Shown one piece after another: positions 1,796 through 41,273 of a stretch of 64,000 nucleotides of DNA. Source of the DNA: Woeseiaceae bacterium (GTDB taxonomy: Bacteria > Pseudomonadota > Gammaproteobacteria > Steroidobacterales > Woeseiaceae); assembly GCA_021773035.1 (NCBI GenBank), contig JAJFKU010000016.1, positions 124,001 through 188,000 on the forward strand. The letters run 5' to 3'. A model generated the notes under the pieces. That model had not been told where the DNA came from, searched no databases, and saw only the letters and a program-made list of their open reading frames with translations. The translations under genes were made by a program, and so were the position numbers. Position 1 is the first letter of the stretch; each line of letters starts with the position of its first letter.

Positions 1796-1900
1796 ATCGA
1801 TTTCTCCGGGTTAGGCCTCCGCATACCCCATCGCACAACCCCTTTTCAACAGGGCACCCAGTACGACGTGTCGGTATACGTGTGAAGTAGTGTCACTATC

Positions 1901-1914
1901 GGCAACTAGTTGCC
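1901..1914 (-). promoter_or_regulatory. Perfect palindrome (hairpin) in rpsB leader
   Basis: GGCAACTAGTTGCC is a perfect 14-base palindrome lying just downstream of the predicted rpsB start of transcription. Known rpsB leaders carry structured elements through which S2 represses its own synthesis. This hairpin could be part of such an element, but the match is by position only. Confidence 0.35.
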
Positions 1915-19922: not shown

Positions 19923-22900
19923 TTAGCGCTGGCCGGCGATCCGCCTGAGTATCTGCTGATCAGCCTTGATAGTGAAACGCAGGAACGGTCCCGATGCCGT
20001 GAAGCGCGCCGCGGCAAAATCCTGATCGTCGAAGCCCTCAAAGTTATACCCGAGTGTCAGCCACATGTTCGAACCGACGTTATAGCCAACGTCAACACCC
20101 GCGCCGTAGTCGATGATCTTGGAGCGGTAGGAATGATAGATGCTGGTATTGACACCGACGTCCCAGCGCTCACCGAAACCGTGGCGCAAATCGACGCCGA
20201 TCAGGTCCGTATACCCGGTAAAACTCTGCTCGTCGAAGTTACTGCGAACGTATTTGAAGGCGTACTGCAACGATAGCTGCGTAGCCGCGCTGATACGCCG
20301 ATTGGCATTGAAATTATTGATCAGACGCCAGCTATCCTGCTCACTGAGCGCTGTCGACATCTCATCGGCAATCAGATCGGTGCGATTCAGGAATGACCAC
20401 TTGCGATCGGCCAGCCGGTACGCCCAGCCGAATCTGAGATTCGCCTGCGTCATTTCCGATCCCAGCGAAGTGTCCGCCTGGAACAGAGTGAATGCTGCCG
20501 ATAAGCCGTGTCCGACTGTCGGTTCGCGGTACCAGCCTAACAGTACCGTGGCACGTTCTTCGCTGTCCGAGTCACGAACTTCCAGTCGGGAATTCGCACT
20601 CCACAGATTAGAGGTATAGGTCGCACCGACATACGCCGCAACGAAGTCCTCGTTGAACGAACCGGAGCCGAGTTCGCGATCCGTGTCAAACGGGCGTGCG
20701 GCAGGACTAAGCAGCGTTTTAGCGTGGTCGACGCCGAGATCGACAATCCATTTCTCGTTGATCTGAAAACCCTGAATCAGACCGAGATTCGCGAATAAAC
20801 GCGGTCCGAACTCCGTAGTCTCATTACTCAGGAAAGAATTGATCTGGGCTCGGCTCCACGGATTTGCTCGGACGCCAACTCTTGTCATCGACGCGTCCAG
20901 ATCCTCTCCAGTCGTATCCTCATATTCTGCGACCAGTTCCAGTCCATCCATGAGCCTGTAGTCTGCGCCAACAACTACGCTGGTCGGGTAATCCGTATTC
21001 TCGGCGCCTTCGTTCAGGGCGAGACTGCCACCGAGTCGCAATCGAAGCTTGTCTGCGAGAAACTTCTGTGCAACTCCAACCTCAAGCAGCTGACTGCTGC
21101 GTTTATCGCCGTCTTCGAATTTATCTTCAGCGACTGCCACGCCAAGGCGGGCCGAGAAATCGTTGTTCTCATAACGGACCAGCGCGCGTGCCAGGTTTCG
21201 AATCGCTTCGGTCTGCAGGTTCTGCTGCCAGCTGGCCTCGCCCTCGACGGCGAATCGCTCCCCGATTTCTGCGCGAGCATCCACGCCGAGACGACGTACA
21301 CCCTTGTCTGCAGCCGACTGGCTGCCGAGTCCGAAACCATCGTCGACTTCTCGCATGTAGGCCCGAACATCAAGATTTTCGCCGTTGTGTTCGATATCGA
21401 TGCTGTGGGCCGAACCTCCCTGCTCCACCCCGCCGATCGTTGCATTCGAGTCGGCGACCTCGACCTTCAACAAGGTCTGTTCGTTGATCTGCCAGCGCAT
21501 GTCGAGACCCGTCAAATCCGCCTCGCTGCCCTGCGTTGCGTCATTAATATGCGTCACCCCGAACTCAAGAGCATCATTCGCGGTCCTGAGCGAGCCACGC
21601 GCACCGGCAACGACGTCCTCGGTACTGTCCGAAACAGATTCATACTCGATAACGATGAAGATCGGATTAAAGTCGAGATCCCGGCTGGGTACCGGCCGCT
21701 TGAAGTACAAAGTGCCGCTCAATGTATCAATGTTGTAATCGAGAAAGCGCGACAGAGCCTGGCTACTGAGAACCGTACCGGTATCGAAGCGGTCACGTAC
21801 TTCAATACGGACGTTCTCGCTGTTCGCAATGATGGGTGAGGCGCTCAGTCGATACAGCCCCGACGTGCCGTCGCCGCGAATCTCGTCACGGTTGTAACTC
21901 TGATCGGTTTCGGCGGCAAAGGCTGTATAGCCTGCATTGCGACCACGATACTCGCTTTTCAGGCCGTTGAAGCTGCGCTGGTAGCGGGCCAGATCGGTAA
22001 CGGATAGGCCGGTGTCGAAATCGCCGAACAAAGCGTAGAACTGATTGCGCTCCAGCTTGACGTAGAGCTTGCGCTGACTCGCAGCCTCGAAACGTTGCTC
22101 CGACGTATCGGCGTACAAGGAATAATAAGCGTTCGGGTCAACGACCGTCTCGAAACGCTCCCGGTTCAGATCACGATCACGGGCGGAGTCGAAGGCGAGG
22201 GTTAACAGAAACTCACCCTTGATCGTACCTTTGGCGAAGAAGGCGGCCCGGCCGTCATCATAGTACTCATCCGTGTGTCCGGCATCGACTGCTGCCGCGA
22301 CGTTGTCTGACAGCGTGTTGTAGCCGGCTGTGCCTTCAGCAAACCCAACCAGAATCCACTCGCGCTGCGCCGGCTTCAACCATGCCCTGATTTTCTGTTC
22401 GCGGTAGTTTTCGAATGGCAGGACGATCGTTACTTCACCGGTCTGAGTCGTCGGCGCCAGCTCGAGGTAGGCGATTCCATCCGCGTCAACCCGATAGGTC
22501 GCACTGCGTTCAGCAACCTCGACCAGGGCATTCTTGCGATCGTTTTCTACGTCCCATGCGGAGCGATACGGCGCATTGACGCGGAACCGCCCGACCATAC
22601 CCGCACGCGACGGTTTGCCGCTGCGGTCAAACAAGCGAACGGCAACGACGGATGGCGTCTTGCCATCGGCGATCAGCGTCGACAAACCTGCTACGAACTC
22701 CCCTCGTATCGGTGTCCCGGTGAAATGGATGGTACGGCGAATGCCCTTCGCCTTGGTGCCGTCAGCGTTCCAGATGACGGCACGAATCTCGTTGCCGCCA
22801 TCGACGAGGTCAACACCAACCCAACGGGTAATCGCAACCGTTCCGGCGGCATTCCTCGCGGAACCGTCTATGTTCAACTTGCTGACCGGATCACCGTTGA

Positions 22901-25805
22901 CGGTGAGCTCAACGCTCTGACCGGGTTCGTGCTGAATCGAGACTTTCGTCGATGCAATCGCCGGCGCGTAGCCTCTCTCTGGCAGCAACATCGCGTAGCC
23001 CTGCGGCAGCGTTTCTATTGCAGGCTCTTTCTGCGACGACGGCATGCCGACGTTGCCGTCTTGCCGCGGTTTTCCTGCGCGCTCTTTTTCCATGCCCGGT
23101 ATCGCGCCGACCGTCGGCGTTTCCCGGATGCCGCTCGATTTCTGTGTGACTTCCAGGAAGGACGGCTTGGTCGGTCGAATTCCGTTTATCACCATTTCGA
23201 CGCGACGGTTCTTTTGTCGACCAGCGGCTGTAGCATTGTCCGCGACCGGGTCGTCCGGCCCGCGACCTGCGACCTGAATCGCGGCCGCTGGAATGTTCAG
23301 CGCATCGGCGACGTAGAACGCTGCTGCCATCGCGCGCGCCTGAGACAGCACATAGTTATCGGCAAAGCGGTGTTGATTGCGTGGACTGATACGCTGGCTA
23401 TCACTATGGCCGACGGCTGACAGTTGAATCTCGCTAACTCCCCGCCAGTCCTCTATCAGGCTGTTCAGTTGCAGCTTGTCCTGATCCGAAAGTGTATCGG
23501 ACAACACATCGAATTTAAGATCGAGCACATAACCTTCATTCTTCAGGACCGCCGGTTCACGCAGCATCTTTGTTTCGACGACCGGCGTTTTACGCTTGGC
23601 CTCCATCGGCGTATCGAACTTCGCCAGCGCTTTCGTTACCAGTTCACCTTCGACCGCGTCACCGATGGTTGCGATAAAACTGACGCTGCTTTCCCAGTTA
23701 CCGGTCTGCGGCTGCAGCGGTATAGACAGCGAAGGACCCAGCAGGTGTGGCTCGGACGTCGGAGCCCCGTTTACCTTGATGCTTCCCTGTGTATAAGACA
23801 CGCCCTCCGGCAAGACCACCATCAAGCCGATGTTGTCAATTTCGACGTTACCAATTCCGTTCAGAGTCAGGTCATAACCAACCTGTTCCGTACTGTCCGT
23901 CCCCGTATTACGCATCTCGATATCGATACGTCCATGTGGTGGCTCTTTGCGGCGCAGGTAAAAATCAGCACGTTGCATACTGCCGCGGGCCAGTTTCACG
24001 AACTGCGAATCGGCGCGGCCGGAAAACCCGGGCGTCAGACTGCAACCAATAACGTCGAAGTAGCCAGGTACTGTGAACGTATCCAGCTGCGCAACGTGTG
24101 TACCCTGATTTACGCCTTCGAAGTGAAAACGACCGCCAGCATCGGTCACCGCATAGCGTCCGTCTTCAAGATAGATCCGAACGTTCTCAACACCCTGGTC
24201 TTCGGCGAACGTGTCCTGGCCGCAATCGCCTTCAAGCACGCGGCCGATGATAGTGCCAGTCGTACGGAACAGATCTTCGGTCAGACGAATCGCGGCACTG
24301 GACTCGTTCGATAACAAACCGCCGGCTGCGAAGGCGGTAGCGGTATTGACAAGTTCATCATTACGTTTGCCGCCGACGATTTCGACGACATATGAAATTC
24401 GGTGTGCAGACCCGGCAGCCAGATCGACAAGCTCGATCTGCAGCGTGCTCATGTCCGCAGCGATGAGCGGGTCAGCAGTGCTGGTTCCGTCGATCATCAT
24501 CGAACCGGTAACGAACCTGACGCCGGATGGCAGCTGATCCGAAATCGACAGATCGGTCGCAATGCCGGTAGCCGAGGTATTTTCCAGTGTCAGCTCGTAG
24601 CGTACAAAGTCGCCCGGCGCCGCCGTGGTCGTCAACGTTCTCTTTTGCAGGAACAGGGCCGAGGACTGCGGATCCAGCGGAATATCAAGCGCGATCGACA
24701 CGTCGCCGCTCTTGCTGAAAGCGGCGCCAAAGGATGCCGGACCCAGGGCCCAGGGGGCTCCGGGTAGAGCCTGTAGGGCGGAAACCGGCGCCGAGGACGG
24801 TGCCGCATACGCCGGTGGCGGCGTTATGAGCAGACGGTAGTCGCCGTCTGGCACTACCGGAAACCGGTATTCACCGGGACCGAAGACATACACCGTTCCC
24901 GAACTATCGGTGGCGGTACCGCCACTGACGATAGACGACGGAAACTGACTAACTCCATCATTGCCGTAGACAACGGCGGGTAAGCCGCTTACAGCGTCGA
25001 CAATTTCAATATTTGTGCCGCTAACCACCGTACCGGTCCGTGATTCGAATACGCGTTGCACGGGATCCAGCACCGCTGATGCCTGCGCGAAATCCGCGCT
25101 ATCTACGGGATCGCTATAGGCAACGCTGATGGTCGAATTCGAAGCACCCTGCAGCAGGCAATCGCCGGGCGTAGCAACGCCGCCTGCCAGCGGCACGAAG
25201 CCTGCGAATACGCCGGTATTGACGCCGGTTTCGGATAACTGAATAGTTTCGCTGTCGCCGCTTAGCGAGTCGCTGAGCGAGACGCTTGCGGTATCGATGA
25301 TTTGATAATCGAGGTTTTGATCGCTGTCTGTCAAACGGATAAAGGCCGCTTCGCCGATGTTATAGCTTGAAGCTGCCGAGATATCCTGCTGCAGCGCCGG
25401 ATCGATGCTGTTGCCGCCAATGAGTGTCGGATCAGCGAGACTCACGAAAGCACCACCCTGGAAACAGGCAGACGGACCAACCGCCTCCTGATAGGTTGCG
25501 CTTCCCGCAGCCACGACACGCGTGAACTCCAGCAGCGAGGTGCTGCGCACTACGGCGGTGACAACGGAAACCTCATTGCTATCGACCGTCGCCGACTGCC
25601 CCGAGAGGTCGAGATACCCGAGTGTTGCCTGATTGCTTATGACCGCGCCTGGCGGGCCGGCAGCTGCCGGCCCGGCCAGCAGAAATGACGCAGCTGCCAA
25701 GGATAAGAATCGCGACAGGACGGCGCCACAGGATCGCCAGACGTAGCTCGGGGGAAGCTGTTGCTCCCCCCGAGGTCCGTCCTTCAATTGACGTCCCGTG
25801 AACAC
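19923..25805 (-). CDS. Giant DUF11/OmpA/beta-barrel outer-membrane protein
   Basis: A 1960-residue cell-envelope protein. Approximate order: signal peptide (to ~49, AGPAAAG), a short module shared with the neighbouring DUF11 proteins (50-95), a 'TDSDQNLD' beta domain (155-230), a first DUF11 repeat (385-500), a CarboxypepD_reg/SdrD-B-like domain with AVTDAGGRFHFEGVNQG (~520-580), a second DUF11 repeat (625-735), an OmpA peptidoglycan-binding domain (753-872; GHSDSQ, LSQARA, NRRVEMVI), Ig-like domains including 'IADGKTPSVVAVRLFD' (to ~1140) and a C-terminal region of ~800 residues rich in amphipathic strands that looks like a large barrel. It would span the peptidoglycan to the surface. The start is uncertain: GTG 25805 (AGGGA upstream) or TTG 25787. 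Its function is not known. Confidence 0.85.
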   Translation of the reverse strand: MFTGRQLKDGPRGEQQLPPSYVWRSCGAVLSRFLSLAAASFLLAGPAAAGPPGAVISNQATLGYLDLSGQSATVDSNEVSVVTAVVRSTSLLEFTRVVAAGSATYQEAVGPSACFQGGAFVSLADPTLIGGNSIDPALQQDISAASSYNIGEAAFIRLTDSDQNLDYQIIDTASVSLSDSLSGDSETIQLSETGVNTGVFAGFVPLAGGVATPGDCLLQGASNSTISVAYSDPVDSADFAQASAVLDPVQRVFESRTGTVVSGTNIEIVDAVSGLPAVVYGNDGVSQFPSSIVSGGTATDSSGTVYVFGPGEYRFPVVPDGDYRLLITPPPAYAAPSSAPVSALQALPGAPWALGPASFGAAFSKSGDVSIALDIPLDPQSSALFLQKRTLTTTAAPGDFVRYELTLENTSATGIATDLSISDQLPSGVRFVTGSMMIDGTSTADPLIAADMSTLQIELVDLAAGSAHRISYVVEIVGGKRNDELVNTATAFAAGGLLSNESSAAIRLTEDLFRTTGTIIGRVLEGDCGQDTFAEDQGVENVRIYLEDGRYAVTDAGGRFHFEGVNQGTHVAQLDTFTVPGYFDVIGCSLTPGFSGRADSQFVKLARGSMQRADFYLRRKEPPHGRIDIEMRNTGTDSTEQVGYDLTLNGIGNVEIDNIGLMVVLPEGVSYTQGSIKVNGAPTSEPHLLGPSLSIPLQPQTGNWESSVSFIATIGDAVEGELVTKALAKFDTPMEAKRKTPVVETKMLREPAVLKNEGYVLDLKFDVLSDTLSDQDKLQLNSLIEDWRGVSEIQLSAVGHSDSQRISPRNQHRFADNYVLSQARAMAAAFYVADALNIPAAAIQVAGRGPDDPVADNATAAGRQKNRRVEMVINGIRPTKPSFLEVTQKSSGIRETPTVGAIPGMEKERAGKPRQDGNVGMPSSQKEPAIETLPQGYAMLLPERGYAPAIASTKVSIQHEPGQSVELTVNGDPVSKLNIDGSARNAAGTVAITRWVGVDLVDGGNEIRAVIWNADGTKAKGIRRTIHFTGTPIRGEFVAGLSTLIADGKTPSVVAVRLFDRSGKPSRAGMVGRFRVNAPYRSAWDVENDRKNALVEVAERSATYRVDADGIAYLELAPTTQTGEVTIVLPFENYREQKIRAWLKPAQREWILVGFAEGTAGYNTLSDNVAAAVDAGHTDEYYDDGRAAFFAKGTIKGEFLLTLAFDSARDRDLNRERFETVVDPNAYYSLYADTSEQRFEAASQRKLYVKLERNQFYALFGDFDTGLSVTDLARYQRSFNGLKSEYRGRNAGYTAFAAETDQSYNRDEIRGDGTSGLYRLSASPIIANSENVRIEVRDRFDTGTVLSSQALSRFLDYNIDTLSGTLYFKRPVPSRDLDFNPIFIVIEYESVSDSTEDVVAGARGSLRTANDALEFGVTHINDATQGSEADLTGLDMRWQINEQTLLKVEVADSNATIGGVEQGGSAHSIDIEHNGENLDVRAYMREVDDGFGLGSQSAADKGVRRLGVDARAEIGERFAVEGEASWQQNLQTEAIRNLARALVRYENNDFSARLGVAVAEDKFEDGDKRSSQLLEVGVAQKFLADKLRLRLGGSLALNEGAENTDYPTSVVVGADYRLMDGLELVAEYEDTTGEDLDASMTRVGVRANPWSRAQINSFLSNETTEFGPRLFANLGLIQGFQINEKWIVDLGVDHAKTLLSPAARPFDTDRELGSGSFNEDFVAAYVGATYTSNLWSANSRLEVRDSDSEERATVLLGWYREPTVGHGLSAAFTLFQADTSLGSEMTQANLRFGWAYRLADRKWSFLNRTDLIADEMSTALSEQDSWRLINNFNANRRISAATQLSLQYAFKYVRSNFDEQSFTGYTDLIGVDLRHGFGERWDVGVNTSIYHSYRSKIIDYGAGVDVGYNVGSNMWLTLGYNFEGFDDQDFAAARFTASGPFLRFTIKADQQILRRIAGQR
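25747..25774 (-). promoter_or_regulatory. Stem-loop at the 5' end of the giant-protein gene
   Basis: CTCGGGGGA and TCCCCCCGAG pair as a 9-base stem with one bulged C around a 9-base loop. No T-run follows on either strand, so it is not a classic terminator. It lies inside the first 20 codons if GTG 25805 is the start, and about 55 bases after the stop of the preceding gene. A role in mRNA processing or translational control is possible. Confidence 0.45.
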
Positions 25806-25827
25806 CGTGATGCGTCCCTACCCTTCG

Positions 25828-26922
25828 TTACGGAGTCGGATCCGGATCAGGAATCGTTACCTGATACTGAATCGTCAGCGTAGTGTTCCCGGCAACCGTA
25901 ATGCCACCGCCAAGATCAGCTGCGCCGATAGTCATATTGGCAGCCACCAGGTCGCAGCCATCGCCATCACCGTTCGTCTCAACGTCGCACCCAAGCGTGG
26001 CAACATCATTGACGACACTGACATCGTTACCGGCGTATGCAGCAACATTCAGATTAAGCGCTACATCGGCGTCGATCGCATCGGCGATCACAACGGCATC
26101 GGCCGCTGTCGCGCTGCTATTGACAACCGTGATCGTGTACTCGACCGTTGCGCCGGGTATCGGCAGGCCGCTACCGAGGTCACCAGCGATAACCGCGTAC
26201 GATTTCGTCACGGCCAGATTGGCTGAAACGACTATCCAGCCATCGACGTCCGACTCAACAGCATCGTTGCCGGCATCGGCGAAGACGTTCTCAACACCGA
26301 GGTCGGTGTTCGGGTCTTCGGCCAATACAGTTGCCGCCGCACTACCTGGCTCACGGGCCGTAGCATCGAGCTGCACACCTGCAACCTGCCCATTCAGCAT
26401 CGCCAGCGCCGCATCACCGAAGACACGTATACGAATACTGTCGTCGGCAGCAAGCTGATCGACAAACTGTGCGCCGCCACGGATCGGATCCGGGTCGGCT
26501 CCAGCAACGGAATCGGCACTGACTGCATAGTCAACCAACGCCATGTTTGCGTCGTCGGTTGAAGCACGAACTGCTCCTCCGACCAGCTCGTTGAGCGTCA
26601 TGGCAAAGTCGAGCGGCGAGTTCGAGTCATTCGTCAACAGGAAGTCGAAGAACGAATCGGTTTCACCCGGCGTGACATCGACCAGTGCCGCACCCTGCGC
26701 CAGCAGAGTGAAATCGACACGACGATCCACGACGAAACTCACAGACGACGTCAGGTCGGTCTGATCGACGCCGTTGACGTCATAGTCGACAGACACTGTA
26801 TTGTCGACGGCGGTTCCTGCCGCGGTGCCAATGGCCATCGCCTGCTGACCGAACAGTAGTACGCCGCTTATGGCGAGCAGCCTGGGTATCAGGCTTATGT
26901 TTTCAAATTTACGTTTCATCAC
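25828..26922 (-). CDS. Secreted DUF11-repeat protein (C)
   Basis: A 364-residue exported protein with signal peptide (MMKRKFENISLIPRLLAISG onward, cleaved near AMA-IG). The mature N-terminus 'GTAAGTAVDNTVSVDYDV' is the same type of module as in the upstream gene at 27515-28528. A DUF11 repeat follows near residue 235 (NLAVTKSYAVIAGDLGSG, PGATVEYTITVVNSS). It is acidic and Ala/Val/Asp-rich, ends in DPDPTP, and has no anchor or LPXTG motif. It lies 22 bases upstream of the giant barrel gene, so the two products probably work together on the surface. The function is unknown. Confidence 0.8.
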   Translation of the reverse strand: MMKRKFENISLIPRLLAISGVLLFGQQAMAIGTAAGTAVDNTVSVDYDVNGVDQTDLTSSVSFVVDRRVDFTLLAQGAALVDVTPGETDSFFDFLLTNDSNSPLDFAMTLNELVGGAVRASTDDANMALVDYAVSADSVAGADPDPIRGGAQFVDQLAADDSIRIRVFGDAALAMLNGQVAGVQLDATAREPGSAAATVLAEDPNTDLGVENVFADAGNDAVESDVDGWIVVSANLAVTKSYAVIAGDLGSGLPIPGATVEYTITVVNSSATAADAVVIADAIDADVALNLNVAAYAGNDVSVVNDVATLGCDVETNGDGDGCDLVAANMTIGAADLGGGITVAGNTTLTIQYQVTIPDPDPTP

Positions 26923-26996
26923 GGTACTCCTTACCTCTTACGATTGCCGATTCATTCCGGCGTTTGCCAAAGCGAAGGTATGCATCTGCATTTCCT

Positions 26997-27467
26997 TCAT
27001 TCCAAAACAGCTGCGAAGCGCGCGGTTGCCTGCGCACCTGCATCCAGATCGTTCTTCATTACCCAGCGGACATGTGTGAAGTCGCGAGCTTCAGCCGCAC
27101 GTGCAACACCATCCTCAGTAACGCTGAGACTGTCGGCCGTTGCGAAAGACTGCCCGCCGTCGACGGAAAACTGCATCTCGGTACCCGGCCCGAACCCGGA
27201 ACCATCGACGTAGACGAGATCGGCGGCAATTGGGTTCGTGATGACCACGTTGTCTGCCGTTTCGTCGCTAACGTTGGTGAAAGTGATCGTGTAGTAGACG
27301 GTTTCGCCGGGAACCACGGTATCGGCAGGAATCAGTCGTTTATCAGACTCGCCGGCGTCGTTGATAAACACCTCTTCCTTCTGCACGACCGTCTGTACAT
27401 CGAGATGCGCCTCGGCCAGCGCGGACATACTCAGCGCCGCCAGAAATAATCCAGTTAGAGTTTTCAT
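26997..27467 (-). CDS. Small secreted DUF11-domain protein (B)
   Basis: A 156-residue exported protein: signal peptide MKTLTGLFLAALSMSALAEA, then a single DUF11 domain (VPGETVYYTITFTNVSDETA, VYVDGSGFGPGTEMQFSVDG). The frame is open up to 27515, but ATG 27467 has GAGG about ten bases upstream and gives a clean signal peptide, so it is chosen. Similar stand-alone DUF11 proteins occur in marine gammaproteobacteria without assigned function. It is the second gene of the four-gene DUF11 operon. Confidence 0.8.
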   Translation of the reverse strand: MKTLTGLFLAALSMSALAEAHLDVQTVVQKEEVFINDAGESDKRLIPADTVVPGETVYYTITFTNVSDETADNVVITNPIAADLVYVDGSGFGPGTEMQFSVDGGQSFATADSLSVTEDGVARAAEARDFTHVRWVMKNDLDAGAQATARFAAVLE

Positions 27468-27514
27468 AGTCGCTCTTGCCTCCAGTTTGAGATTCGCTCT
27501 TGTATTCAATTTCA

Positions 27515-28528
27515 TCAGTCAATACTCACCTGGAAGACGATGCTTTGTGCGCCGTCCCCCTGTGTCAGGTCACCGAGGCGCACGACAATCGTCGCCGGGC
27601 CGCTAAAGTCCAGCTCACCGGAGTCGGCATCGGCGACATCGCTGAGTGGCGCACCGTTCAAGGCCAAACTCGTCGGCACGAATGTTGTAAACACCGGGAT
27701 CGCGTCTCTTAATGTGCTGGCAGTTGCCACACCGGCGCTGACGACTTCCACGTTTATCGTGTAGGTCAGGACCGCGCCGGGAACCGGCTCGCTGCCGCCG
27801 TCGGGATCGAGCACAGATTGTGTTTTGATCACGTTAATCAGAACGTCTGAAACCAGGTATTCGCCAACAGCGAATGCACTGCCCTCGGTCGTTCCAATTA
27901 CCGCGTTGACACCACCGTCTCCCTGATTCGCGAATACTGTGCCTGACGGGCCGGAACCAGTTGTCGACGTTGCCGTCAGCTGACTGCGTCCGACTTCGCC
28001 GTTTACGGCCGTACCCGGAATATCGTTGACGATGAATACGTTGACGGAACCGTCAGCCGCCAGCAGCGGGTCGTTGACACCCGCTGTGTAGGCCTGGTCA
28101 CCCAGGTTGAAATCACCGCTGGCATCAGTATCGAAGTAGATAGCCGGCACCGCGGGGACAGGGTCGAAATCGTCGCCGGCGATTGCGCTGTCGACGATCA
28201 GTTGAAAGCTCTCGGTACCGTTACCGGTATTGGTCACGGTGAACAGCAACGCCCGGTTCGTGTCGTTCGCCGATACCAGGGTCTGTGGACTCTGCAGGGT
28301 CGTGGTCACGTTAATGCGCTCGGCTACGACAATCGTTGTGGTATTCGATTGCAATGCCAGCGGTGTGCCGGCAAGTTCATAGCTGATATTGGCGGTGTTC
28401 TCGATAACCGTGCCAACGGCTGTACCGGCAGCAAGGGCCGGGGAGCAGAGCACACAGCAGACGTAGAATATGGAAAACCGCCGCATCCACACAAATGCCG
28501 GCGATGGCAAGCTGCTTACCAGTTTCAA
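27515..28528 (-). CDS. Secreted DUF11-repeat protein (A), first of operon
   Basis: A 337-residue exported protein. The signal peptide ends ALA-AG and the mature part begins 'GTAVGTVIENTANISYEL', paralogous to protein C and to the giant protein. A DUF11 repeat lies at the C-terminal end (VPGAVLTYTINVEVVSAGVA, LRDAIPVFTTFVPTSLALNG). I keep TTG 28528 as the start because AAGGA lies eight bases upstream; ATG 28486 gives a shorter signal peptide and is the alternative. It heads the operon, with CRP-type sites upstream. Confidence 0.78.
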   Translation of the reverse strand: MKLVSSLPSPAFVWMRRFSIFYVCCVLCSPALAAGTAVGTVIENTANISYELAGTPLALQSNTTTIVVAERINVTTTLQSPQTLVSANDTNRALLFTVTNTGNGTESFQLIVDSAIAGDDFDPVPAVPAIYFDTDASGDFNLGDQAYTAGVNDPLLAADGSVNVFIVNDIPGTAVNGEVGRSQLTATSTTGSGPSGTVFANQGDGGVNAVIGTTEGSAFAVGEYLVSDVLINVIKTQSVLDPDGGSEPVPGAVLTYTINVEVVSAGVATASTLRDAIPVFTTFVPTSLALNGAPLSDVADADSGELDFSGPATIVVRLGDLTQGDGAQSIVFQVSID

Positions 28529-28659
28529 GGTTCATTCCTTATCGCGGTAACGTTCCAGCGCGTTACCAGGCGCCTGTTCGCTGTCATTGCGAACTTATTG
28601 CGGGACTCTCCGTGATTACCGGCAGCGGCGCATCAAATCGGGTCGTTTATTATGTAATT

Positions 28660-28675
28660 TGTGATCGGTATCACA
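28660..28675 (-). promoter_or_regulatory. CRP/Vfr-type binding site (perfect core)
   Basis: TGTGATACCGATCACA (minus strand) is a perfect TGTGA-N6-TCACA palindrome with A/T-rich flanks, as in strong CRP sites. Its centre lies 33 bases from a possible -10 TTTGAT (28637-28632), close to class II spacing. It precedes the DUF11 operon. Confidence 0.75.
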
Positions 28676-28682
28676 CTTTTGC

Positions 28683-28698
28683 CGTGAATCGTCTCACA
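28683..28698 (-). promoter_or_regulatory. Second CRP-type site
   Basis: TGTGAGACGATTCACG matches TGTGA-N6-TCACA at nine of ten core positions. Its centre is 23 bases from the first site, about two helical turns, so both dimers would sit on nearly the same face. Confidence 0.55.
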
Positions 28699-28735
28699 CT
28701 CGCGACACCGCTCACGGTGGGGCCTTCAGGAGCAG

Positions 28736-28776
28736 GCAGAGCACCGGCCACGGCGCAATATGTCAGATAAATGACA
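28736..28776 (-). promoter_or_regulatory. Possible weak sigma54 element and upstream inverted repeat
   Basis: TGGCCGGTGCTCTGC (28750-28736) has TGGC and TGC at -24/-12 spacing but lacks other consensus bases. Just upstream TGTCA-N6-TGACA (28776-28761) is a perfect 5+5 inverted repeat. Together with the CRP sites these fill the 276-base gap between the activator gene and the DUF11 operon. The sigma54 call is weak. Confidence 0.3.
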
Positions 28777-28804
28777 CGTCCTGTGTGGCTTTAGCCGGAT
28801 GCAA

Positions 28805-31189
28805 CTAGTTGGGTCTGACGATGCCGAGTTTCTTCATTTTCGAACGCAGCGTGCTGGGAGGAATTCCCAATTGCGAAGCTGCACCCGATTCACCGGAAAT
28901 CTTCCAGTGCACGTCGTTCAATATGCCAACAATATGATCCCGCTCAACGAGCTTCAGATCAACGACGGTCGAACTAATGATGGTCGGTCTGCCATCATCG
29001 GAATCCCTCCAGACCAGTGGCTCCGCAAGTTCTACAATCGGCCCGGTGTTTGAAATCAGTGCGCGCTGGATAATGCCATCCAACTCTCGAACATTGCCAG
29101 GCCAGTTATAGCCACGTAACTGGCGCATCATTTCGGACGAAATCTCCTGGACGTCACGACCCAGGCGGTGTGCATGCATGTTGACAAAATGCCGCGCAAG
29201 CAAATCGATGTCGGCGCCACGATCCCGAAGCGCCGGCAACTCAACCGGGAAGGTGTTGATACGGTAGTAGAGATCCGAACGGAACTCTCCCGCATCAACG
29301 GCGGCACCCAGGTCGCGGTTGGTGGCTACGACGAGGCGAACGTCGACCTTAATGGTCTTGGTGCCACCCAGCCTTTCGAACTCACCCTCCTGCAGCACCC
29401 GTAACAGCTTGGCCTGCAAACCGATCGGAAACTCACCAATTTCATCGAGGAACAGCGTACTCCCATCGGCCAGATCGAAACGACCACGTTTGCGGCTGTC
29501 AGCGCCGGTAAACGCCCCTTTCTCATGCCCGAAGAGTTCGCTCTCAATCAGGCTTGCCGGCAACGCTGCGCAGTTTACTTTAACCAACGGACGATCGCGG
29601 CGATCGCTATGCTCATGAATTGCACGCGCAATCAACTCCTTGCCAGTGCCGGTTTCGCCAAGAATCAGCACAGGGATTTCGGTATTCGCAACCTGCTCCA
29701 CCTGATTCAGACAGCGCAGGACGCCGTTGCTCTCACCGACGATCTCATCAAAGCCTTGTTTTCGTTCTACCTCTTCACGCAGGTAAACATTCTCGGCTTC
29801 GAGGCGATCGGTCGCGTTCTGCAAGCCACTGAGCGCGTCGGCGAGCGCGCAACGCGACTTCAACCTGAGCACCGAATTTGCCAGTATCTCCGAAAATACC
29901 GTAGCGTCTGCGATCATCTGGTCAGTCCATCGCTTCTCTTGTCCAAAGCGAGCCAATGACATTCCGCCAACGAGTTCGTTGGCGATAATCAGCGGCAGCA
30001 CCACGACCGATTTCAGGTCAAGGCGCATGAGATTCCTGCGGTCGAGCGCGAAGTCATCAGGCAGGTCCGCGATGCTGTCAATACGAATCACCTGGCGTTG
30101 TTGCATTTGTTGCCACAGACGCGGAAACATTTTCATGGAAATGCCCGGCCCAATGTTGTCTGCGCCGGAACGGGTCCAGAGGTTTGCCACCGATACTGCC
30201 TGTGTTTCCAGGTCATCCAGCCACAACATGGTGGAGCGATCCGCGTCGAAAAACTCAGCGATCCTGCCCATACAGTCGCGTATCGTATCGTCAGCCTGTT
30301 CGTCCGGCATTGTGACCAGTTTTGTGGAAACGTCGGCAACCAGTTTTTGGTAGCTCTGCCTGTGCGCCAGCTCCGCCTTGGTTTCGCGAAATTCGAGAAC
30401 GTTGCTTTCGATACCCCAAATCCGCTCGAGGCATCCATCGTGAACAACGCCGATCAAATTAACATTCAACGCACGGCCTTCTCCGGCGGGAGTTTTGTAG
30501 TTGAGTTCGTACTCTTTGAGCCGGTAGCCACTATCGACGAACGCCGTGATCAGGGCCGTATGCGCTTCTATGTCCTTGGCGCTGTCCAACTCGCCGAATC
30601 GCTGCCCCACGACTGCGTCGACGTTGTCCGTTTCCAGTTCCCGGACAAAAACATCGTTCGCCTGTACCAACTCGGCATCGAGCGTCTTGCGCAGGTGTTC
30701 GTCTACCGACGCGGCTATCGAAATCGGCGTACGAAACGAATAGCAGTAGACCGAATCCGTCGTGGAATCGAACAGGTATCTAAAGCGCTTGTCGGATACG
30801 CTGCGGCTGGTACGCAAATCGTCGAGCAGCGCATTCTTGCTCGTCATGTCGCTGTCGATCCGGCGTCTTGCGAGCACGGTAACGATCAGTCCCGCCGCGA
30901 TCAAAGCGAATGCCACTCTCGATAAAGCCCAATACACCCAGTTTGAGGAAAAGAAACCACCGTTCAGCGCCAGCAGCAGATTTGTCTCAGGAAACAGATA
31001 TTGGAATGCCAGATCGGACACGTGCGCCAAGCCGGCGAAAATCATCCCGGCGACGATCATGATGCCGCCGAGCGGCAGCGGCCTGCCGTTTTTCGACACG
31101 CCGGAGACCAGCGCATAAGCCAGTATGCCAACGGTTGCGCAAATGAGGATGAGGTCGACAGAACTGACGACGAATTCCAGCCCCGTCAT
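28805..31189 (-). CDS. Membrane-anchored sigma54-dependent transcriptional activator
   Basis: A bacterial enhancer-binding protein of about 794 residues. Three membrane segments at the N-terminus (about 10-32, 43-65, 87-107) precede a PAS-like domain (~135-260), a GAF domain (~285-430), a short coiled coil, the AAA+ domain (~475-715) and a C-terminal Fis-type helix-turn-helix (SQLGIPPSTLRSKMKKLGI). Walker A GETGTGKELIARAIHEHSDR, the sigma54-contacting GAFTGAD and Walker B LFLDEIGEF are intact. Start: ATG 31189 with GGTGG upstream; GTG 31198 is also possible. It lies upstream of the DUF11 operon and divergent from a receiver-like gene with a sigma54 promoter, its most likely target. Confidence 0.92.
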   Translation of the reverse strand: MTGLEFVVSSVDLILICATVGILAYALVSGVSKNGRPLPLGGIMIVAGMIFAGLAHVSDLAFQYLFPETNLLLALNGGFFSSNWVYWALSRVAFALIAAGLIVTVLARRRIDSDMTSKNALLDDLRTSRSVSDKRFRYLFDSTTDSVYCYSFRTPISIAASVDEHLRKTLDAELVQANDVFVRELETDNVDAVVGQRFGELDSAKDIEAHTALITAFVDSGYRLKEYELNYKTPAGEGRALNVNLIGVVHDGCLERIWGIESNVLEFRETKAELAHRQSYQKLVADVSTKLVTMPDEQADDTIRDCMGRIAEFFDADRSTMLWLDDLETQAVSVANLWTRSGADNIGPGISMKMFPRLWQQMQQRQVIRIDSIADLPDDFALDRRNLMRLDLKSVVVLPLIIANELVGGMSLARFGQEKRWTDQMIADATVFSEILANSVLRLKSRCALADALSGLQNATDRLEAENVYLREEVERKQGFDEIVGESNGVLRCLNQVEQVANTEIPVLILGETGTGKELIARAIHEHSDRRDRPLVKVNCAALPASLIESELFGHEKGAFTGADSRKRGRFDLADGSTLFLDEIGEFPIGLQAKLLRVLQEGEFERLGGTKTIKVDVRLVVATNRDLGAAVDAGEFRSDLYYRINTFPVELPALRDRGADIDLLARHFVNMHAHRLGRDVQEISSEMMRQLRGYNWPGNVRELDGIIQRALISNTGPIVELAEPLVWRDSDDGRPTIISSTVVDLKLVERDHIVGILNDVHWKISGESGAASQLGIPPSTLRSKMKKLGIVRPN

Positions 31190-31371
31190 CGCATCCACCG
31201 AGTGGGATCGTCGTCACCTCGCTTAGCCGCGATCTTCAGAACAGGCGGAAAACAGCTTTCATCTACAGCCGGAAAGGCCAATTGACACATCATATTGTGG
31301 TTATTTTTCGAGTTACCACTAAACCCTTTAGTTGCGATCTTTTGTACACCCTCACCTGCGGAAAGTCACGA

Positions 31372-37746: not shown

Positions 37747-38949
37747 CTAGACCCCTATACTGCTGATCGTCTCGTAAATCGGACCGAGTACTGACAGCAT
37801 GATCCAGCCCATAATCGCACCAAGGACAACAGTCATCGCCGGTTCGATCATCGCCTTGAGGCGGTCGATCGATTCAGTGACTTCCCGATCGTAGAAATAA
37901 CTGACATTGCTCAGTGCGTTGTCGAGCAGGCCGGTCGATTCGCCCATGCGAACCATGCGCACGACCAGTGGCGGAAACATCTCCGTTGCTTCGATACTGG
38001 CGCTGAGCGCTTTGCCATCGGCAATATTGGACGATATGTCCTGAATCGCCCTACGAATAACTGCGTTACCCGTAACATCTTCCCCGATCCGTAACGACGC
38101 CAACACGTCCAGGCCCGAGCTATAGCAAAGCGCGAAATAGCTGGCGAAACGACTTAACACCACTTTCGTCTGTATCGGCCCGATGTACCACGCATTGAGT
38201 TTCCAGCCATCCACAATGTAGCGAAACCCGTCGCTGCGACTGGCCTGAAATTTGATCAGCAAAACGACCGCGGCGGGCAACGGCACTGCCCACCACCAAT
38301 GTGTCGTCAGGAAACCCGAGAATCCGATCAGCGCTCGCGTGTGGATGGGTAGCTCCTGACCCATTTCGCGAATGAAGTCGACCATCTGCGGCACAACGTA
38401 CAGCATCATGAACAGCATCACGCCGACGACAACGACCCCAACGAACGCCGGGTAAAGAGTGACCGTTTTCGCCTTGGCTATTAGCTCGTCCTGCCATTTC
38501 AAGGACTCTGTGAGCTTCTCCATGACATTGGGTAGCTCACCCGACTGTTCGCCAACATTCACCAGGCTGACGAAGACATCGCCAAAAACCTGTGGAAACT
38601 CCGACATCGCCTGTGACAGTGTCTTCCCGGACTCGACAGACCCGATCAGGTTACTGATGAGTTCGCGGAATGACGGGTTACCGGCGCTGTCACGCAGGTC
38701 CGTCAGTGCTTCGAGTATAGGCAATCCCGCTCGCGTCATCTGCTCCATGTGAAAGCAGAAACCGATAAGGTCTTTGCGGCTCGCCCGAGCTTTTCTGAAG
38801 AACACGCCACGACCTTTTTCGGCGCAGCGCAGCATCTCCACGCCAGACTGCCGCAGCTGTGCCTCGAGCACACGCTCGTTGGAGGCTTCGAGGTTTCCCT
38901 CCACAATGACGCCGTTGGCATCCAGCGCTCTGTAATTGAAAGACGCCAT
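37747..38949 (-). CDS. Type II/IV pilus inner-membrane platform protein (MshG/PilC/GspF)
   Basis: The 400-residue polytopic platform protein that works with the assembly ATPase. It begins MASFNYRALDANGVIVEGNL and has two GspF domains (about 65-190 and 270-392) with 'LRDSAGNPSFRELISNLIGS', 'VSLVNVGEQSGELPNVMEKL' and the matching 'MVRMGESTGLLDNALSNVSY' motifs, and a final helix. ATG 38949 is four bases after the ATPase stop. The family is certain; MshG is favoured by context. Confidence 0.93.
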   Translation of the reverse strand: MASFNYRALDANGVIVEGNLEASNERVLEAQLRQSGVEMLRCAEKGRGVFFRKARASRKDLIGFCFHMEQMTRAGLPILEALTDLRDSAGNPSFRELISNLIGSVESGKTLSQAMSEFPQVFGDVFVSLVNVGEQSGELPNVMEKLTESLKWQDELIAKAKTVTLYPAFVGVVVVGVMLFMMLYVVPQMVDFIREMGQELPIHTRALIGFSGFLTTHWWWAVPLPAAVVLLIKFQASRSDGFRYIVDGWKLNAWYIGPIQTKVVLSRFASYFALCYSSGLDVLASLRIGEDVTGNAVIRRAIQDISSNIADGKALSASIEATEMFPPLVVRMVRMGESTGLLDNALSNVSYFYDREVTESIDRLKAMIEPAMTVVLGAIMGWIMLSVLGPIYETISSIGV

Positions 38950-38953
38950 TACG

Positions 38954-40681
38954 CTATGCAACCCTTGCCGTCAGGTCGACAACCCTGGATATCTCGGAAA
39001 GACTCGTCATACCGGCGAGGGCGTGACGTATGGCATCTTCCGCCAGATCCTTGAAACCTGATTCCAGTGCTGCCTGACGCAGCTCCATTCGAGTCGCCGA
39101 CCGGGCGATCATTTCATCGATTTCCTGATTGATCTTCAGCACCTCGACAACAGCCAAGCGACCCTTGTACCCGAGGAAGTTGCAAGACTCACAAGACCCT
39201 TCGCGATAGAGCAACACTGGTTCTGTGCCGCTGATCCCCAATAGCGATCGCTCCGCTTCGTCCGGTGCGTACGCCTGCTTGCAATGACCGCACAAGCGTC
39301 GCACCAGACGCTGCGCAACGATACCGATGATGTTACCCGCCATAATCTGCGGCTTCACGCCGATGTCGATCAGGCGCGGAACTGCTCCAAGCGCAGAGTT
39401 TGTATGCAGCGTTGTGAACACCTGGTGTCCCGTCATCGCTGCCCGAAACGCCATCTCAGCCGTCTCTTCGTCACGTACCTCGCCCACGAGAATGATGTCC
39501 GGGTCCTGCCGCATCATCGAACGAATACCGTTTGCGAAGTCCAGCTTCGCCGCTTCGTTCAGGGAGGTCTGTCGAATCATGGCCATCGGATATTCCACCG
39601 GGTCCTCAAGCGTCATGATGTTGACCGACTCATCGTTACGAAAATTGAGCATCGAATAGAGTGTCGTCGTCTTGCCACTGCCTGTGGGACCGGTAACAAG
39701 GATGATGCCTTCAGGACGCGCCATCATTACCTGCAGCGACGTCAACGTGTCTCTGATCAGGTTCAGTTTTTCCAGCGGTACGATGCCCTTGCGGCGGTCA
39801 AGCACGCGCAGCACAAAGTTCTCACCGTGCGTCGTCGCCTGTGACGCAACACGAAAGTCGATCCTGCGGCCAGCCAGTGTCAGGCCGATACGTCCGTCCT
39901 GCGACGCCCGGGTCTCGGCAATATTCATCTTTGCCATTACTTTCAGGCGCACCACCATTCCGGGCCAATAGCTTCGGTGCAAGGCCATAACCTGTCGCAG
40001 CACTCCGTCGATTCTGTAGCGCACACGAAGAAAACCGGATTCCGGCTCGAGGTGTATATCCGAGGCGTCGCGCTTCACGGCATCTGCGAGAATAGCGTCG
40101 ACCAGGCGGATGAGAGGATGACTGTACTCCTCCGTCTCAACAGCGATGTTCAGATCATCTATCTCGCCCGTATCGATCTCACTGAGAATCCCCTGTATCG
40201 AGAGTTCATATTGATAAAACTGTTCGATCGCAGCCTCGATCTCAGCGTCTCCCGCAACCAGTGTCAAGATACCGATGTCGCTCCCCAGGGTTGCCGCAAC
40301 CTGATCGACAGCAACGACATTGAAGGTATCCGCCATGGCCAGGGTCAGCACTTTTTCGTTCTTGTCGAAGTTTATCGGCAGCATGCGGTAGCGGCGTGCG
40401 ATGTTTTTGGGCACCATCTTCAGCGCGTCAGGATCCGGAATCGCGGTTGACAGATCAATAGCATCATGTCCGAGAGATTCGCCCAGCGTATCGCGCAGCA
40501 CGCCCTCGCTGAGCAGACCGAGCCTGACCAGAATTCGACCCAGAGGTTCGTCGTTACGCGATTGCTCCTTCAACGCGACCTGCAGCTGATCCTCGCTGAT
40601 AAGCCCCGCCTCCATCAGGCGCTTGCCGAGCGGCAGACTCGGTTCCGTGGTCTGCAACTTCCGAATCGTCGTTGTACTCAT
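38954..40681 (-). CDS. Pilus/secretion assembly ATPase (MshE/GspE type)
   Basis: A 575-residue hexameric ATPase powering pilus or pseudopilus assembly. Two N-terminal MshEN-type repeats (about 17-40 and 47-70; LG..L...G......L...L) are of the kind that bind cyclic-di-GMP in MshE, though the first Arg of each is Pro here. Then come Walker A TGPTGSGKTTTLY, the Asp box, Walker B 'DPDIILVGEVRDEETAEMAF', the His box and a tetracysteine zinc site (CGHC and CESC). It overlaps the preceding gene (ATGA). Confidence 0.93.
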   Translation of the reverse strand: MSTTTIRKLQTTEPSLPLGKRLMEAGLISEDQLQVALKEQSRNDEPLGRILVRLGLLSEGVLRDTLGESLGHDAIDLSTAIPDPDALKMVPKNIARRYRMLPINFDKNEKVLTLAMADTFNVVAVDQVAATLGSDIGILTLVAGDAEIEAAIEQFYQYELSIQGILSEIDTGEIDDLNIAVETEEYSHPLIRLVDAILADAVKRDASDIHLEPESGFLRVRYRIDGVLRQVMALHRSYWPGMVVRLKVMAKMNIAETRASQDGRIGLTLAGRRIDFRVASQATTHGENFVLRVLDRRKGIVPLEKLNLIRDTLTSLQVMMARPEGIILVTGPTGSGKTTTLYSMLNFRNDESVNIMTLEDPVEYPMAMIRQTSLNEAAKLDFANGIRSMMRQDPDIILVGEVRDEETAEMAFRAAMTGHQVFTTLHTNSALGAVPRLIDIGVKPQIMAGNIIGIVAQRLVRRLCGHCKQAYAPDEAERSLLGISGTEPVLLYREGSCESCNFLGYKGRLAVVEVLKINQEIDEMIARSATRMELRQAALESGFKDLAEDAIRHALAGMTSLSEISRVVDLTARVA

Positions 40682-41262
40682 TCGTCACCCTCCGGGTTCC
40701 CGGAGGTCGACGTATCGTCTATAAACGGAAACTGCTCAGCGTCGCTGCCGCTCGCTACATCATCCGACCCGGCGTACCGCGAGTCCGAGTCATTTAACCG
40801 GGGCGCGGTAAACTCCGTATCCACCAGACTCAACCTGACATGTTGCACAGCAAACCAGAATATGGCGGCGATCAATGCCAGCAGGATGCAGACATGGGGT
40901 GCAAACCTCGCCAGCACAGGCTCGCGGGTAACCGTGGGTAACGACGCAGGTACAGCAGCGGCAGCCACTTCATTTACCACTGTAATCCCGGGAGCAGTCG
41001 CTTGCAGGGCCGGACCCTGCGTCTGCCGCAGCTCGTCAACTTCCCCTGCTTCATCCCCGTCTATATCGAAACTCGCGGCGAAGGAAACGGAGGTCTCGAA
41101 TAGTGCGAGTTCCTCTGCCGTTTCCTGCCGCTCTGCAGCGGCGTCATTTGCGATGGTCGAGAAATCGCTGTGTGTCGTGTCGAAGCTACCGGAGTCCGAT
41201 AGTGTCCGGCGTTCGTCGTCATCACCCGCCTGACGAAGAGCATCTAAAAGCAAATTCTTCAT
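40678..41262 (-). CDS. Single-pass membrane protein, GspB/MshN-like N-terminus
   Basis: A 194-residue protein. MKNLLLDALRQAGDDDE resembles the start of GspB/ExeB and MshN-type proteins ('LLLDAL'). An acidic cytoplasmic region leads to one membrane segment (about 121-140, HVCILLALIAAIFWFAV) and a short acidic periplasmic tail. It lies between the secretin and the ATPase genes, where MSHA loci carry mshM and mshN. No TPR repeats are visible, so it is a reduced form or unrelated. Function is inferred only from position. Confidence 0.5.
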   Translation of the reverse strand: MKNLLLDALRQAGDDDERRTLSDSGSFDTTHSDFSTIANDAAAERQETAEELALFETSVSFAASFDIDGDEAGEVDELRQTQGPALQATAPGITVVNEVAAAAVPASLPTVTREPVLARFAPHVCILLALIAAIFWFAVQHVRLSLVDTEFTAPRLNDSDSRYAGSDDVASGSDAEQFPFIDDTSTSGNPEGDE

Positions 41263-41273
41263 ACTCGACTCCG

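Follow-up and report, generated by a model that had tools for sequence, protein, structure and literature searches.

A probable fibre of split CLIPPER (DUF11) domains with a giant barrel protein as its putative base in a Woeseiaceae bacterium

In chaperone-usher pili (FimA/FimH/FimD), incomplete immunoglobulin-like (Ig-like) domains are completed by the N-terminal extension of the next subunit, and the tip adhesin is acceptor-only. In the SpyTag/SpyCatcher pair, an isopeptide domain of CnaB fold has been split by engineering into a peptide and a catcher; the split considered here would be natural and CnaA-like, and would build a polymer. We analysed a 64,000-nucleotide stretch of a Woeseiaceae bacterium (contig JAJFKU010000016.1, positions 124,001 to 188,000; hereafter the window) and found a locus of four exported proteins, A, B, C and G, whose genes lie head to tail. 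We consider it reasonably probable that these proteins, with a fifth protein, T, encoded elsewhere or in related loci, form a donor-complemented, probably covalent fibre of unfinished DUF11 domains, in which T is the tip, A and C are the shaft and G is the base.

DUF11 was solved in 2025 and renamed CLIPPER; it has an Ig-like CnaA fold with a Lys-Asn isopeptide and an Asp as the presumed catalyst, and in CnaA-like folds this isopeptide joins the first and penultimate strands (in structure 9IFR, Lys715-Asn806 with Asp748; PMC12617251, in excerpt). The same excerpt describes a CLIPPER fibrillar adhesin, B9T28_05395 of Acinetobacter silvestris, with the isopeptide Lys/Asp/Asn, an OmpA-type anchor and an adhesive N-terminal head. 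Our locus would share the domain family, these residues, the type of anchor and the adhesive head with such adhesins, which, however, carry complete domains in one long chain, whereas here the domain is split between proteins. In the archaeal thread Saci_0406, head-to-tail donor-strand complementation is accompanied by an intermolecular isopeptide, Asp24-Asn57, and by a donor-only putative cap (PMC9715654, in excerpt, which also gives the donor-strand completion mechanism of chaperone-usher pili). Its subunits belong to another fold family, there is no outer membrane, and its bond uses the N-terminal residue of the subunit two along the chain (same excerpt); it shows that a single fibre can combine donor complementation with an intermolecular isopeptide, with other parts.

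The likeness to chaperone-usher pili lies in the unfinished-domain logic at sequence level, in the putative acceptor-only tip and in the large predicted outer-membrane barrel. The differences are that the subunits are CLIPPER domains, that the donor is a two-strand hairpin carrying an Asn, and that the platform G itself has a donor head and often an OmpA domain. Usher families were absent from the Pfam matches of G (E ≤ 1) and of five distant G proteins (E ≤ 0.01), so the locus would work like a chaperone-usher pilus without belonging to that family of systems. We regard the locus as a variant built on known principles that stands a reasonable chance of proving a class apart.

Unfinished tails and putative donor heads

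An earlier note on this DNA had described four open reading frames (ORFs), three of them encoding DUF11-repeat proteins. ORF calling indeed recovered all four where the note had put them, all on the minus strand (Table 1), and its 156 residues for B correspond to an inner ATG, the more likely start, the first ATG giving 172. The repeats, however, proved wrong. Pfam and TIGR01451 recognised a single DUF11 domain in each of A, B and C and matched it only over about its first half, which is the key fact of this analysis. A, B, C and G all scored above the 24-bit cut-off of TIGR01451, the only cut-off that whole A passed, as it had no Pfam match at E ≤ 1; the 24.6-bit cut-off of PF01345 was passed by G (35.4) and B (26.5), and A and C fell below it. 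A, B and C thus end before the penultimate, Asn-bearing DUF11 strand. We ran profiles of A, B and C on the ORFs of the relatives' loci, with counts made on non-redundant operons and classes A and C told apart by where they lie with respect to B. In 46 of 51 operons the DUF11 match in A ended 0-1 residues before the stop codon, at profile position 92-93 of 124, the Asn column being 103; the ends in B and C were more scattered, and the C tail of the window has 7 extra residues at its end.

An N-terminal module common to A, C and G, also proposed by the earlier note, was borne out. The scores of A-C (74) and A-G (53) were reached by 0 of 2000 shuffles each, and that of C-G (33) by 43 of 2000. The module, with the consensus GTxxGTxIxNTAxVxY...SN...V, is kept across operons in all three proteins and looks like a two-strand hairpin resembling the missing penultimate and last DUF11 strands, Asn included; by eye, the same words occur in the complete DUF11 repeats of a paralogue in the same genome (contig C61). 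The DUF11 triad is split, with Lys and Asp in the A and C tails and the Asn in the heads (Table 1). Because these residues are kept across phyla although the bond is impossible within one tail, the pattern matches the prediction of an intermolecular bond, and an isopeptide between subunits is probable. B keeps the Lys in 32 of 60 operons; with its catalytic Asp mostly lost and no donor head, it is probably not an ordinary shaft subunit.

Tails were then scored, alone and joined to heads, against a profile built from complete DUF11 domains. The first profile comprised 84 domains, of which 13 came from G or G fragments (2 from the G of the window) and 5 reached the protein C-terminus; because it held G-derived domains, a second, cleaned profile of 53 domains was made that excludes those proteins. 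The internal DUF11 of G was the seed of both profiles, and some of the 53 domains come from proteins also matched by the A, B or C models, as expected for DUF11 proteins. With the first profile, the A tail of the window scored 38.4 bits alone, 50.5, 51.3 and 42.7 with the heads of A, C and G, and 36.4 with the B head; the B tail scored 40.4 alone, 51.1, 49.4 and 44.7 with the same heads, and 39.5 with the B head. The cleaned profile gave the same picture, with 31.7 for the A tail alone, 45.7, 42.7 and 34.1 when joined and 31.3 with the B head, and for the B tail 33.6, then 45.3, 43.1 and 37.7, and 32.6. Gains on these two tails under the cleaned profile were +11-14 bits from the A and C heads, +2.4 and +4.1 from the G head and -0.4 to -1.0 from the B head. 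Shuffled A and C heads reached the real value in 0 of 300 trials each on both tails, and a shuffled G head did so in 1 of 300 on the B tail.

The effect extended to 69 non-redundant operons under the cleaned profile, where the heads of A, C and G gave mean gains of +7.6, +10.2 and +5.5 bits on A tails, +6.4, +8.7 and +4.0 on B tails and +2.6, +4.0 and +2.9 on C tails. The corresponding values on A, B and C tails were +1.3, -0.1 and -0.2 for the B head and -0.5, -1.1 and -1.8 for shuffles. With the first profile, the head Asn fell on the DUF11 Asn column in 48/51 A+C, 45/51 A+G, 58/62 B+C and 57/68 C+G joins, compared with 7/50, 5/58 and 7/59 when the B head served as control. A Pfam cross-check of nine tail/head constructs extended DUF11 coverage in A-tail chimeras to 98-106 of 114 positions, compared with 74 in the control. 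By these scores, joining a head to a tail restores the DUF11 match for A and B, and does not do so clearly for the C of the window.

Table 1 Features of the A-B-C-G locus, in positions of the window
Feature	Position	Strand	Remarks
Gene A	27515..28528	-	337 aa; donor head after the signal peptide, then middle domain and acceptor tail
A donor hairpin (putative)	28319..28429	-	AGTAVGTVIENTANISYELAG...SNTTTIVVAE; Asn44 kept 41/49
A acceptor (putative)	27518..27856	-	DUF11 ending before Asn strand; Lys235 49/51, Asp275 51/51
Gene B	26997..27515	-	Signal peptide and one unfinished DUF11; no donor head
B acceptor (putative)	within 26997..27515	-	Asn94 at the place of the catalytic Asp: Asn 51/60, Asp 6/60
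Gene C	25828..26922	-	364 aa; signal peptide, donor head, middle domain, acceptor tail
C donor hairpin (putative)	26722..26832	-	Asn41 kept 66/69
C acceptor (putative)	25831..26241	-	Unfinished DUF11; Lys240 60/63, Asp281 67/67, of 69 aligned
RNA hairpin between C and the G signal peptide	25745..25777	-	Covariation
Gene G	19923..25805	-	1960 aa; putative giant anchor, possible export barrel
G donor hairpin (putative)	25554..25658	-	PPGAVISNQATLGY...SNEVSVVTA; Asn58 kept 64/68
G internal complete DUF11	24327..24650	-	Residues 386-493; above Pfam cut-off
G CarboxypepD_reg/SdrD_B-like stretch	24084..24203	-	Residues 535-574; below cut-off in the G of the window
G OmpA-like peptidoglycan-binding domain	23205..23513	-	Residues 765-867
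G barrel region (predicted)	19968..22355	-	Residues 1151-1946; about 36-38 strands
Small beta insert inside the barrel (predicted)	21690..21875	-	Residues 1311-1372; after the first 7-8 strands; DSSP of model

The giant protein G, the candidate tips and their distribution

The C-terminal barrel that the earlier note had foreseen in G was indeed predicted. In a model built on a 77-sequence alignment, the C-terminal 861 residues were nearly all beta (pLDDT 81.2, pTM 0.79), and AlphaFold on the single sequence gave pLDDT 32 and pTM 0.21. Thirty strands of at least 8 residues follow the small beta insert and 7-8 precede it, and the resulting number of about 36-38 was read from the DSSP list and not from coordinates, so that closure and the exact number are provisional. 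The position of the insert would be plug-like. Foldseek gave as best matches of the barrel Deinococcus SlpA (E 6e-9 to 1.6e-8), the Mtr complex, LptD and SprA (chains 8gl6, 8gl8 and 6h3i, E 7e-6 to 2.3e-5, TM (query) 0.15-0.23). VIA-align 2 placed the usher FimD first (Z 15.4 and 14.9; 9fy9_D Z 15.4, 346 aligned, rmsd 8.9) and FhuA next at Z 14.5, less than 1 Z behind, which is a tie, and ushers are therefore not singled out by the fold match. A search of PDB sequences with the barrel profile returned nothing convincing, with one peptide deformylase at E 0.97. The model thus points to a very large outer-membrane barrel outside any assigned family.

The composition that the earlier note gave for the rest of G stood in part, as DUF11 and OmpA (29.4 bits against a cut-off of 27.2) were above the Pfam cut-offs and CarboxypepD_reg was below (residues 535-571, 19 bits against 32.3), as was a match to OMP_b-brl (26.8 bits against 28.7). 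CarboxypepD_reg or SdrD_B was above its cut-off in three of five distant G proteins, the former in L253 and L122 and the latter in L253 and L260. OmpA had no match at E ≤ 0.01 in three of these five, and the domain would accordingly lie outside the core of G. The internal DUF11 of G matched the CLIPPER structure 9IFR weakly (E 0.34), with one Lys and one Asp in register.

Several distant loci (9 cases in the operon set) encode, upstream, an additional large protein that has this unfinished tail as well and that we call T; in L257 and L258, from few-contig genomes, a shorter T is found immediately downstream of G. In the window's own genome, a DUF11 search revealed an unlinked T of 492 residues (contig C48), with a reelin-subrepeat/CBM-like head and a tail ending ..VFRVRIE*. 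Reelin-like heads were also found in 3 of 9 other T proteins scanned; one of the nine had an H-type lectin head, one DUF3344 and four only DUF11-type domains. The donor motif was absent from the first 120 residues of all 24 recovered T frames, which are open frames, some of them cut or extended at the start. Among 24 T tails, Lys and Asp were each present in 23, a result partly built in, since the selecting pattern already required Lys and D, N or M at the place of the Asp; the 9 linked T proteins, chosen without that pattern, have both residues by eye. Genomes such as G022, G060 and G034 each have two or three near-full matches to the T tail, in frames of unequal length, as though the tips of a fibre could be exchanged.

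We searched 99 genomes (the window's own and others from its genus and order) for the last 861 residues of G. A match was present in 59, and it spanned at least 500 residues in 33 genomes other than the window's. The T tail was found in 29 of the 98 relative genomes (E < 1e-15), namely in 25 of 33 G-positive and 4 of 65 G-negative ones (Fisher p 1.5e-12), where the G-positive genomes include four with a partial barrel (G006, G049, G037 and G023) and one of the four T-positive G-negative genomes (G093) has a fragment of the G end on the same contig. A class sample gave a similar split, with T in 10 of 22 genomes with G and 0 of 20 without, one of the 20, which were the first listed and not a random draw, having a weak match.

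A conserved neighbourhood was also confirmed. Among the 59 loci in which 3 kb or more of upstream DNA precedes G, B was present in 54, two or more A/C genes in 50 and both in 48; the 11 misses include a Nitrospiria locus with T, B, C and G in which A was unseen by the profile. A-B-C-G recurs in Pseudomonadota and Desulfobacterota, far outside the genus, and also in few-contig genomes of another Pseudomonadota class (family f211). In a named collection, of which the best 80 of 287 relatives were kept, the closest are metagenome-assembled genomes titled Woeseiaceae bacterium, Woeseia sp., Gammaproteobacteria bacterium and Proteobacteria bacterium, and the titles among these 80 include Woeseiaceae, Steroidobacter, Sideroxydans, Gallionella, a zetaproteobacterium, Geobacter, Desulfosarcina alkanivorans PL12 and a Nitrospiria bacterium. 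Viral contigs yielded no relative.

Across 397 Pseudomonadota genomes (396 besides the window's own), with G counted at 800 or more of 854 profile positions, 25 had G and 28 had a near-full B; 23 had both, 2 had G only, 5 had B only and 366 had neither, that is, B was near-full in 23 of 25 G-positive and 5 of 371 G-negative genomes. In the five with a near-full B and no G match (G528, G632, G739, G527 and G553), the base may have diverged or be missing.

In the window's genome (5.38 Mb), G is the sole full copy. A diverged paralogue pair, separate from this locus, lies on contig C61 (L065 4205-14304) and consists of a 1669-residue multi-DUF11 protein and a 1697-residue protein in which OmpA domains accompany a related barrel start; relatives have similar pairs as well as single-chain forms of 2000-5000 residues. 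A two-DUF11 protein with, by eye, a zinc-metalloprotease motif and a hydrophobic C-terminal stretch was seen on contig C16 of this genome (C16:62315-63022; L195 1619-3808).

A fibre model and its alternatives

With T (and perhaps B) acceptor only, A and C both donor and acceptor, and G donor only, the proteins follow a grammar of tip, shaft and base. In our proposal, the DUF11 domain at the end of A, B, C and T lacks its last two strands, and the head of one subunit would complete the tail of the next; since Lys and the catalytic Asp are kept in the tail and the Asn is brought by the head, the joint would probably be sealed by a self-made intermolecular isopeptide. T, some forms of which have lectin- or reelin-like heads, would serve as tips, A and C would make the shaft, and G would be the base, held in the outer membrane by its giant barrel and, in many species, linked to peptidoglycan through OmpA. 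The part of G ahead of the barrel should be periplasmic, so the fibre would begin there, at the G head, and exit by a pore, the simplest candidate being the barrel of G itself, as in ushers; besides anchoring, the barrel probably serves for export. B may bind donor heads reversibly, in a chaperone-like manner, or cap an end without a covalent bond. The view of the earlier note, with G as anchor or export pore and the small proteins as its partners or subunits, is thereby partly supported, since the barrel is predicted and the genes travel together, and its parts are sorted further here. More tentatively, the locus could stand for a widespread, sortase-free class of Gram-negative fibre with self-welding split isopeptide domains, exchangeable adhesin tips scattered over the genome and a single-chain barrel of ~36-38 strands that both extrudes and anchors; this is possible, and we would not put it higher.

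Several results weigh against the proposed fibre. The C tail of the window showed no clear gain, scoring 33.5 bits alone and 29.4-31.6 joined with the first profile, and 28.0 alone and 28.0, 24.7 and 25.8 with the heads of A, C and G with the cleaned one, values that shuffles reached in 0, 214 and 159 of 300 trials, respectively. On the A tail, shuffled versions of the G head did at least as well as the real one in 18 of 300 trials under the cleaned profile and in 3 of 300 under the first. T tails also gained little from the heads of A, C and G: +1.0, -0.7 and -1.6 bits, against about -3 for shuffles, in 15 unlinked T with the first profile (the pair L198/L039 being omitted, as the G of L039 is split between two frames and lies outside the operon set), and -0.3, +2.6 and +1.2 in the few linked ones with the cleaned profile. 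In the Pfam cross-check, the DUF11 score of the A tail hardly moved (14.5 bits alone, 14.9-15.9 joined, control 15.5) and that of B tails went from 28.0 to 26.4, 26.2 and 29.0, and a PDB sequence search with an A-tail/C-head join returned no CLIPPER structure, only an unlikely cadherin at E 0.41. The usher match of the barrel is tied with ordinary transporters, and closure of the barrel is presumed. As OmpA should be periplasmic, the donor head of G should be there too, which makes the export path a guess. No PapD-type chaperone was found among the four genes, the rest of the genome not having been searched. Sequences and the model show the truncation, the head-tail match for A and B, the split conservation, the co-occurrence and the barrel, from which assembly, bond, export, surface location and all roles are inferred.

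An alternative that retains the fibre is donor complementation without the bond, in which subunits would be held head to tail by strand pairing and Lys, Asp and Asn would be residues of the fold. Most B tails are without the Asp yet keep the unfinished form; moreover, some DUF11 domains are said to be without the bond (PMC12617251, in excerpt) and Gram-negative filaments are described as non-covalent (PMC7835359, in excerpt). However, Lys and Asp are near-invariant in A and C though the Asn is absent in cis, and the Asn is kept in the heads, and we regard a purely non-covalent fibre as unlikely.

It is improbable, in our estimate, that the N-terminal module instead opens the middle domain of A and C as its first hairpin, with the tail completed in cis or never and the likeness to a DUF11 end a relic of tandem repeats. 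Tandem DUF11 proteins such as the L065 paralogue have, by eye, the same hairpin between repeats, so such a relic is possible, A could close on itself, and the joining test of the C tail is weak; but acceptors without heads (B and T) and a head without an acceptor (G) would be senseless in cis, and the split triad is conserved across phyla.

We also give little credence to an envelope complex that does not polymerise, in which A, B and C would dock one each on G as a tether between peptidoglycan and outer membrane or as an S-layer-like sheath, as with Deinococcus SlpA. SlpA/SDBC has a very large outer-membrane barrel and its entries gave the best Foldseek E-values; it differs in that the barrel profile had no sequence match to it in the PDB and that it is not known to have partners of donor/acceptor type. 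G does have an OmpA domain, but OmpA went unmatched in three of five distant G proteins. Subunits that are both donor and acceptor can chain, and a donor-only G and an acceptor-only T are as expected of chain ends. Finally, a protein-export translocon of SprA-like size, with A, B and C as soluble periplasmic accessories, is very improbable: the strand number is near that of SprA (36) and SprA chains are among the Foldseek matches, but no convincing PDB sequence matched the barrel profile and the co-occurrence of T points to a fibre with tips.

If the donor-complemented covalent fibre is correct, its base would be one of the larger single-chain barrels, judged against the 36 strands of SprA, its head/tail pairs would offer natural tools for protein coupling, and partners would be assigned to many genes annotated merely as DUF11 proteins. 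It would also mean that Gram-negatives make covalently welded fibres without sortase, in contrast to the statement that Gram-negative filaments assemble non-covalently (PMC7835359, in excerpt). We found no published account of an A-B-C-G system in a search that left out most subscription papers and all bioRxiv preprints; the closest literature on DUF11 with a donor strand concerned unrelated spore fibres. In the few-contig genomes of family f211, gene deletion may be possible.

RNA hairpin, promoters and flanking genes

In 13 operons of the window's genus, an ATCACGGTGYT motif (25801-25811) is followed by a covarying hairpin of 13 pairs, 9 of which changed on both sides; 84.6% of cells were paired, compared with 36-45% when slid. 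Rfam returned no family for it, only miRNA noise. Because the GTG start of the G ORF lies inside the motif, the hairpin may be leader or early coding RNA, and whether it falls inside or before the first codons of G depends on the true start of G. It may lower G relative to A-C, which would suit a fibre with a single base.

We considered and rejected a sigma-54 promoter immediately before A, as the window held 44 weak matches against 33 expected and none at 28528-28805; sigma-70 promoters and terminators were at chance level. A gene for a GAF/sigma-54 activator lies upstream of A (28805-31198, minus strand), and it may control the operon. Of the same-genus stretches that carry A, 8 of 16 likewise have a homologue upstream of it, compared with 0 of 6 stretches from other families. 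Elsewhere in the window, MSHA-type pilus genes occupy 37747-42941 (minus strand), with MshL above its cut-off, a GspE/PilB-like ATPase with a c-di-GMP-binding domain and a GspF/PilC-like protein, and a t44 RNA was identified by Rfam at 1810-1902 (minus strand, 73.8 bits).

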